The notes below the pieces were generated by a model. The model was not told where the DNA came from and made no database searches. It worked only from the letters and a program-made list of their open reading frames with translations. Of a DNA stretch of 32,626 bases, positions 9,756 through 11,102 are shown one piece after another; the stretch's first letter is position 1; each line of letters opens with the position of its first letter. This stretch comes from Candidatus Berkelbacteria bacterium (GTDB taxonomy: Bacteria; Patescibacteriota; UBA1384; XYA2-FULL-43-10; CAINNR01). The position numbers and the translations under genes are program-made. The DNA lies in assembly GCA_026397235.1 (NCBI GenBank), contig JAPLVG010000022.1, positions 30,624-63,249 on the forward strand, in the 5' to 3' direction.

Positions 9756-10584
9756 TCAATTTATTTTTTCTAGTACTCGTAATTTGGCGCTGCGAGAGCG
9801 AGGATTTTCTCTAATCTCATCCTCTGTCGCAGTGATTGGTTTTTTCATTAGCACTTTGAATTTATCTGGAAAATTATTTTCTAAATCGCGGAAAGCATGC
9901 TTGACGATTCCGTCCTCAAGCGAGTGGAAAGAAATAATTAACAATCTACCGTCATCGGCCAAAAGTTCGGCCGCATTTGGTATGAACTCTTTGAGAACAT
10001 TTAGTTCATTATTAGTTTCAATTCTAAGAGCTTGAAAAACCCTGGTTGCCGGGTGAATTTTATATTTATTTTTGTAACTTGCTGGGAATGATTGTTCAAC
10101 AATTTTTGATAGTTCATTAGTCGTTTCAATCCTGCCAGTCTTGCGGGCCTCGACTTTCGCTGTAATTGTTGATAATATCCGTGGCCGATTCTGTCTCAGA
10201 TTGATTCATTCGCATATCGAGTGGCGCATCAGCCAGGAAAGAAAATCCGCGATCTTTGTTGTCTAACTGATAACTGGAAACACCGAGATCCAAAAGAATC
10301 CCATCAACTTTCTCAATTCCTTTTGATTTCAAAATCTTTGGCAGGTTGGAATAATTGTCATGAACGAATTCAACATGGTCTTTAAAAGCATCAAGGTTTT
10401 CCTTGGCGGCAAAAATCGCTTCAAGGTCTTGATCAATTCCAATTACTCTTCCTGGTGTTTTTTCTAAAATAGCTTTTGCATGGCCGCCTCCGCCTAAAGT
10501 TCCGTCAACAAAAATGCTGTCTTTCCCTAGCTGAAAATACTTCAAAACTTCTTTAAGCAGTACTGACTGATGTTTGAATTCCAT
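9756..10584 (-). pseudogene. rsmH: 16S rRNA m4C1402 methyltransferase RsmH, disrupted by an internal out-of-frame deletion
   Basis: N-terminal MEFKHQSVLLKEVLKYF...DGTLGGGGHA...LLDLGVSSYQLD...RGFSF. The C-terminal part continues in another frame: VEARKTGRIETTNELSKIV...HPATRVFQALRIETNNELNVL...ISFHSLEDGIVKHAF. Confidence 0.8.
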
Positions 10585-10609
10585 GGTGCAATGTTAGCAG
10601 AAATTTGTC

Positions 10610-10638
10610 TTGAAATCTATAGCAAAATATGTTAGAAT
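10610..10638 (+). promoter_or_regulatory. Promoter originally serving tRNA-Asp
   Basis: TTGAAA-N17-TAGAAT, ending 11 nt upstream of the duplicated tRNA-Asp 5' fragment. Confidence 0.65.
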
Positions 10639-10649
10639 TTGTTCATTGC

Positions 10650-10715
10650 GGGGTCGTAGTGTAGCCCGTCTCGGCTGAGCCGAGCCGTGGCGAGGATTAG
10701 ACGGACGGTTATCAC
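10650..10715 (+). pseudogene. Duplicated tRNA-Asp 5' fragment interrupted by a 41-nt palindromic insert
   Basis: GGGGTCGTAGTGTAGC (10650-10665) + 41 nt + GGTTATCAC (10707-10715). The two pieces together equal the first 25 nt of the intact tRNA-Asp at 10955. Confidence 0.85.
10666..10706. repeat. 41-nt palindromic (REP/RPE-like) insert in a tRNA fragment
   Basis: CCGTCTCGGCTGAGCCGAGCCGTGGCGAGGATTAGACGGAC. CCGTCT/AGACGG and CGGCT/AGCCG are inverted repeats. Confidence 0.6.
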
Positions 10716-10964
10716 ATGTATTACACATACGTTCTGAAAAGCCAATCTTCAAATCATTATTATGTTGGTTGGACAAATAATCTGGAACTTAGAATAAAAA
10801 CACACAATAGTGGTTTAGTTACTCGGACAAAGCGATATCTTCCATGTAAAGTAATATATTTTGAAACTTTTGAAGAAAAGACTGAAGCACTGGTACGAGA
10901 GAAATATTTTAAGACACACGCTGGAAGAAACTGGTTAAAGAGAAAATTGAATACGGGGTCGTAG
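10716..10964 (+). CDS. GIY-YIG domain endonuclease (small single-domain)
   Basis: MYYTYVLKSQSSNHYYVGWTNNLELRIKTHNSG...VIYFETFEEKTEALVREKYFKTHAGRNWLKRKL. Its stop codon lies inside tRNA-Asp. Confidence 0.88.
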   Translation: MYYTYVLKSQSSNHYYVGWTNNLELRIKTHNSGLVTRTKRYLPCKVIYFETFEEKTEALVREKYFKTHAGRNWLKRKLNTGS

Positions 10965-11030
10965 TGTAGCGGTTATCACGTCTCCCTGTCACGGAGAAGA
11001 TCGCCGGTTCGAGTCCGGTCGACCCCGCCA
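10955..11030 (+). tRNA. tRNA-Asp(GTC)
   Basis: GGGGTCG...CGACCCC-G-CCA, anticodon loop CTGTCAC. Confidence 0.95.
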
Positions 11031-11102
11031 ATGTAAATAGTCGCTCACAGAGCGTCTATTTTATTGTACGGCAGACCGGAGTTCGAACTTTTATGTTGAG
11101 TA

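Follow-up and report, generated by a model that had tools for sequence, protein, structure and literature searches.

Where integrative elements have their attachment sites in tRNA genes, tRNA sequence borne by the element makes the tRNA gene whole. REP/RAYT systems and IS200/IS605 elements consist of a tiny nuclease gene beside short palindromes. For the single-domain GIY-YIG proteins UPF0213/YhbQ and for Slx1, a nuclease of branched DNA, we know of no mobility and no link to tRNA. SegB, the GIY-YIG endonuclease of phage T6, cleaves inside tRNA genes and has widespread links to phage tRNAs (PMC13096335). The rRNA genes of CPR bacteria carry GIY-YIG ORFs in insertions that are neither group I nor group II introns and have been judged to lie outside homing; CPR rRNA insertions are mostly found at the tops or bases of stem-loops (PMC11270868).

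Here we describe a GIY-YIG ORF joined to a tRNA-Asp gene in a window of 32,626 nucleotides from a Candidatus Berkelbacteria bacterium. The window is the whole stretch of DNA analysed, and forms part of contig 5 of a 925 kb genome in 28 contigs. Genome size and the named relatives of the GIY-YIG protein suggest a member of the Candidate Phyla Radiation (CPR, Patescibacteria). The arrangement differs from integrative elements with tRNA attachment sites in having no integrase (between the remnant and the tRNA there is only the GIY-YIG ORF), in having hairpins in the remnant, and in duplicating, in the window, the 5' part of the tRNA and not the 3' part. REP/RAYT and IS200/IS605 use an HUH (Y1) transposase, which is absent here, the ORF being GIY-YIG by its domain and by its AlphaFold2 model. 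UPF0213/YhbQ proteins are the closest by sequence, and Slx1 and UPF0213 are among the nearest folds. As with SegB and the T-even free-standing GIY-YIG homing endonucleases, a GIY-YIG nuclease gene is tied to tRNA genes, but SegB belongs to phage tRNA arrays, whereas here a bare 82-aa domain accompanies cellular tRNA genes and a hairpin-broken remnant. With the GIY-YIG insertions of CPR rRNA genes it shares the broad host group, the GIY-YIG ORF and the position outside group I and II introns; those insertions, however, are located in rRNA, and tRNA goes unmentioned in the main text of PMC11270868. Table 1 gives the parts of the locus.

Table 1. Parts of the tRNA-Asp locus, in window coordinates.
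Feature	Position	Strand	Remarks
tRNA-Asp promoter-like site, TTGAAA-N17-TAGAAT	10610..10638	+	Read directly and found by promoter scan; aligns with the promoter of the G001 empty site
Remnant, tRNA-Asp nt 1-16	10650..10665	+	Collinear with nt 1-15 of the empty-site tRNA up to 10664
Palindromic insert of 41 nt in the remnant D-loop	10666..10706	+	CCGTCTCGGCTGAGCCGAGCCGTGGCGAGGATTAGACGGAC; inverted repeats CCGTCT...AGACGG (outer) and CGGCTGAGCCG (inner)
Remnant, tRNA-Asp nt 17-25	10707..10715	+	
GIY-YIG ORF (82 aa) with intact catalytic residues; its stop, TAG, is within the tRNA	10716..10964	+	Pfam PF01541, E=3.4e-16
Intact tRNA-Asp(GTC)	10955..11030	+	No second copy detectable by search of the genome; the sole match is itself in G000
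Terminator-like stem-loop 3' of the tRNA	11042..11064	+	Common to the empty site

The first-pass annotation had read this locus as a promoter, the first 25 nt of tRNA-Asp, a GIY-YIG ORF and an intact tRNA-Asp inside which the ORF ends. The promoter is there, and the stop codon (TAG, 10962-10964) does fall inside the intact tRNA, at its nt 8-10. All 25 nt are present as well, with the ATG at 10716 directly after GGTTATCAC, but they are not contiguous: the 41-nt hairpin-rich insert, which that annotation overlooked, splits them after nt 16. There is no apparent ribosome-binding site before the ATG. The insert has a folding energy unremarkable for its composition (z -1.5), and a genome search with its first 30 nt finds no further copy at 3 or fewer mismatches, which rules it out as a high-copy repeat of its own genome. 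The fragment score of the remnant is reached by 0 of 100 dinucleotide shuffles, and because of this and of the same layout in dozens of genomes, the tRNA-Asp arrangement is not a product of chance. The promoter-like site now stands 5' of both the remnant and the ORF.

Two observations concern the surroundings of the locus. The rsmH gene (window 9756-10584, minus strand) is apparently split into two same-strand ORFs, of 152 aa and 68 aa, that are separated by a gap; this suggests a frameshift or a sequencing error. A motif of the form GGCAGACCGGA...AACTTT follows tRNA terminators in three genomes (window 11071-11081, loci L014 and L016, and several spots in contig C32 of G001), and the terminator region is repeated several times in G001.

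The GIY-YIG domain of the 82-aa protein scores 59.8 bits against a curated cut-off of 22.6, and no NCBIfam family is reached. Residues Y16, G18, R26, H30, E62 and K66 are invariant in 18 relatives, and the catalytic Tyr, Arg and Glu are present. AlphaFold2 gives a confident single domain (pLDDT 93.9). The nearest solved sequences are UPF0213 proteins (1ywl, E=1.4e-5; 1zg2, E=5e-4), and the nearest folds found by Foldseek are Slx1, At-HIGLE and UPF0213, all with weak E-values (best 3e-3).

An empty tRNA-Asp site, proposed as a check by the first-pass annotation, is found in G001, a genome of the same genus in which rsmH, promoter and tRNA-Asp are contiguous. The alignment of the window to G001 has three informative blocks: rsmH (10201-10603), the promoter and remnant up to 10664, and the intact tRNA with its 3' flank (10952-11092). 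In G001 the last two blocks adjoin and overlap by the tRNA 5' end; therefore what the occupied site has beyond the empty one is a hairpin, nt 17-25 of the tRNA, the ORF and another copy of the tRNA 5' end. The alignment puts the break point at the hairpin insert. Seen from the empty site, the net change gives the promoter with nt 1-16, the 41-nt hairpin, nt 17-25, the ORF, and then an intact tRNA in its native 3' context. This agrees with the annotation's proposal of an insertion at tRNA-Asp that duplicates the 5' part and restores the tRNA, and the promoter block aligned with the empty site bears out a tRNA promoter placed in front of the ORF. A second empty site belongs to the tRNA-Ala copy of the same genome (L008), where G001 aligns with the upstream gene and with tRNA nt 1-17, as far as the hairpin, and past that point continues as a whole tRNA-Ala; downstream of the tRNA the two genomes are rearranged. 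The tRNA-Ala site of G003, from another genus, is occupied. We thus have occupied and empty alleles of one site at both tRNA-Asp and tRNA-Ala (G000 versus G001). The comparison at a tRNA-Leu locus (L038) is confounded by rearrangement, and that of L077 has no usable synteny.

We think that this is probably a minimal mobile element, in which tRNA sequence is joined to the gene of one single-domain GIY-YIG nuclease, and which enters tRNA genes and leaves one broken and one intact copy of the same tRNA. This reading draws on the architecture, the recurrence at 19 tRNA types, the empty and occupied sites, and remnants on two sides at several loci, all taken from sequence. The conserved active site speaks for it as well, and SegB is a GIY-YIG precedent. 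The nuclease would cut a tRNA gene, or a structure formed by that gene; the break would be repaired from the element-bearing copy, and the ORF would enter together with tRNA sequence that restores the whole gene. Transcription of the ORF may start at the tRNA promoter. Hairpins interrupting the remnants would be a regular part either of the element or of the aftermath: they may be an end structure that the nuclease recognises or acts on, they may destroy the duplicate target, or they may stabilise the element against precise loss between direct repeats. One finding that counts against a mobile element of this kind is that the remnant of the occupied allele is broken by a hairpin, yet the intact tRNA retains the same sequence, which leaves self-protection without an explanation.

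Other tRNA/GIY-YIG junctions recur at many tRNA genes. We surveyed 55 genomes of the class, using lists of GIY-YIG matches drawn up without regard to tRNAs, and obtained 162 small GIY-YIG ORFs. A same-strand tRNA starts within 75 nt after the domain in 44 of the 162 (27%), a tRNA ends within 75 nt before the ATG in 14/162, and antisense tRNA neighbours number 0/162. Random intervals from the same loci give 2.0% (5' of a tRNA) and 1.4% (3' of a tRNA), for a P of about 1e-36, and the genome-wide expectation is about 0.3%, from 44 tRNAs in 925 kb. The ORF stop lies inside the tRNA in 18 of the 44 cases, seven times at nt 8-10 and seven times at nt 13-15. Of the 11 GIY-YIG matches in the window genome, four stand immediately 5' of a tRNA (Asp, Ser, Ala, Glu). 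Among wider relatives of the window protein, 33/59 are tRNA-linked (with the window's own copy counted again), including members in Bacteroidota (L192, Marixanthotalea marina, and L186) and in an Ignavibacteriae genome (L187). Class and wider relatives together hit 19 of 20 tRNA isotypes, with break points that vary among loci between D-arm, anticodon loop and T-arm. Chance neighbourhood or an assembly artefact is rejected by the class survey with its null and by the recurrence across phyla. A quick FastTree tree of 218 short sequences, indicative only for that reason, requires at least 35 context changes and at least 57 isotype changes. In 23/89 cases the isotype is shared with the nearest tRNA-linked relative, against 6 expected; together with the isotype changes, this fits an element that tends to keep its tRNA type but often switches. 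Given the differing break points and the frequent switches, homing by a cut after GGTTATCAC is no more than a possibility. About two thirds of the small GIY-YIG ORFs of the class have no tRNA within 75 nt, which we count against a tRNA-entering element. The first-pass annotation would have given up its reading if related genes sat at unrelated sites: most class copies do lie elsewhere, many of them among palindromic repeats, though with a strong excess at tRNA sites.

A match to the tRNA 5' end lies just upstream of the ORF in 51 of the 72 loci with the ORF 5' of the tRNA (p<=0.05); at least 3 of these matches (L076, L118, L233) belong to whole tRNA genes next door, which leaves about 48 remnants. 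Some loci (for instance L001, L037 and L061) have no detectable 5' remnant, which also counts against the mobile element. The remnant is typically broken by one GC-rich hairpin or by two hairpins, and in 28 loci the tRNA picks up again behind the insert at the following nucleotide or close to it; the insert lies, for example, after nt 11 (L011), 12 (L137, L174), 14 (L052), 21 (L193) or 22 (L221). The insert of L102 and L209 comes after nt 35, in the anticodon loop, and in L016, L107, L120 and L128 a hairpin replaces the anticodon arm. Hairpins occur in 41/51 remnants against 7/51 equal stretches just upstream (12.8 versus 1.8 per kb). Five inserts with a layout of two 15-nt hairpins have compensatory changes (8 two-sided cells; 0/500 shuffles), a test that is modest because the five sequences were picked by eye. 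Five loci (L120, L140, L219, L187, L209) have 5' and 3' remnants of the same tRNA type around the ORF and the intact tRNA, in either order. The two sides share an exact repeat, hairpin included, of 29 nt in L120 and of 37 nt in L140, and both remnants of L209 have an identical 32-nt double hairpin. Remnants of the 3' part follow the intact tRNA in 18/69 loci and, in the mirror arrangement, follow the ORF in 8/16 loci, a few of these being probably neighbouring tRNAs. L195 has two rounds in tandem. We rejected the hairpin as a guard that keeps the remnant from capturing the 3' half of the intact tRNA: with the hairpin removed in silico, that tRNA is predicted to fold no differently (43 loci, p=0.86; secondary structure only, and not final).

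Two further arrangements appear near tRNAs. An intact tRNA-Asp in L016 (1470-1600) is enclosed by long inverted repeats, AGTAAATTTTTTCGATCG... and ...CGATCGAAAAAATTTACT. In L065, L068, L069, L180, L230 and L239, a conserved linker of the form TGTACC...hairpin...GGTACATGGC comes after the 3' end of tRNA-Ser (also Tyr) and directly before the GIY-YIG ORF, with stems that vary by paired changes.

The contexts other than tRNA bear on the strongest alternative, an insertion directed by structure. The GIY-YIG protein would then be a nuclease of palindromic, REP-like repeats acting on hairpins or cruciforms; genes for tRNA, tmRNA and RNase P RNA would be hit for their ability to form hairpins, the tRNA sites would be one instance of a wider habit, and the remnant hairpins would be element ends. 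Many ORFs without a nearby tRNA do sit in palindromic repeats (GTCATTCTGAGC..., GTCATTGCGAG...), flanking direct or inverted repeats of at least 13 nt occur in 35 of the 127 loci that have no tRNA within 75 nt, and tmRNA or RNase P RNA is found near L194, L226, L235 and L082. The double hairpin common to both L209 remnants, the branched-DNA nuclease Slx1 among the nearest folds, and the stem-loop tops and bases favoured by CPR rRNA insertions (PMC11270868) point the same way. Against it, matching hairpins on both sides are rare, at least 13 nt being common to the two sides in only 8/87 tRNA loci, the window hairpin is single copy in its genome, and the Foldseek E-values are weak. On balance we find this account rather unlikely, if worth keeping in view.

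Among the loci in these repeats, L002, L006, L007, L035, L036, L039, L044, L046-L048, L050, L063, L067 and L072 have the ORF embedded in GTCATTCTGAGC or GTCATTGCGAG repeats, inverted copies of which lie at the other end, an arrangement in which the repeats look like element termini. The tmRNA of L194 (1559-1980), beside a GIY-YIG ORF, has GC-rich palindromes of CCCGCC type, one close to the 5' end and another in its interior. A text match of the palindrome sequences to the literature returned only unrelated primers among the matches listed.

A passive history would need no element: a partial tandem duplication of the tRNA, an ordinary GIY-YIG gene landing in the spare copy, and dispersed palindromes accumulating there. 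Related CCCGCC..GGCGGG palindromes do occur elsewhere too, as in the tmRNA gene of L194, and such inserts would be tolerable mainly in non-functional copies; the excess of hairpins in remnants over the stretches just upstream, the compensatory change in paired stems, and the same order of parts across phyla with the ORF starting directly after the remnant make this history quite improbable. That the ORF is a domesticated YhbQ/UPF0213-like repair nuclease, co-transcribed with the tRNA for regulation, is hardly credible despite its similarity to 1ywl and 1zg2, given the patchy presence between genomes of the same genus, the in-frame stops in copies L011 and L070, the 11 GIY-YIG matches in one genome and the frequent changes of tRNA type. 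Two other origins were discarded: a phage origin, as the query used brought up no relative among viral contigs, and a group I intron, as the insert has no Rfam match to a group I or group II intron.

The mobile element that we favour is of a known kind as far as GIY-YIG mobile nuclease genes go, and there is a real chance that a hairpin-ended, structure-directed class is broader and new. We entertain, tentatively and as a possibility short of an expectation, a transposon-like class of hairpin-ended GIY-YIG elements, the GIY-YIG counterpart of REP/RAYT, that would sense structure and not sequence, enter genes of structured RNAs (tRNA, tmRNA, RNase P RNA, rRNA), and rebuild an intact copy beside a remnant disabled by the hairpin. 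The open-access literature, our scope here, yielded no prior account of the tRNA/GIY-YIG arrangement, and, for Patescibacteria or Bacteroidetes, nothing that connects GIY-YIG to tRNA genes.

The results point to a little-noticed class of self-sparing mobile element. The genes for tRNAs are essential and often single copy, and an element that leaves a working tRNA therefore solves the problem of entering them; comparable self-sparing is otherwise known mainly from islands that carry an integrase. The finding links three separate observations: the phage SegB/tRNA arrays, the GIY-YIG insertions of CPR rRNA that are not introns, and the palindromic repeats. If true, one 82-aa ORF would be among the smallest self-sparing mobile elements, and this would explain the scatter of small GIY-YIG ORFs through the reduced genomes of the CPR.
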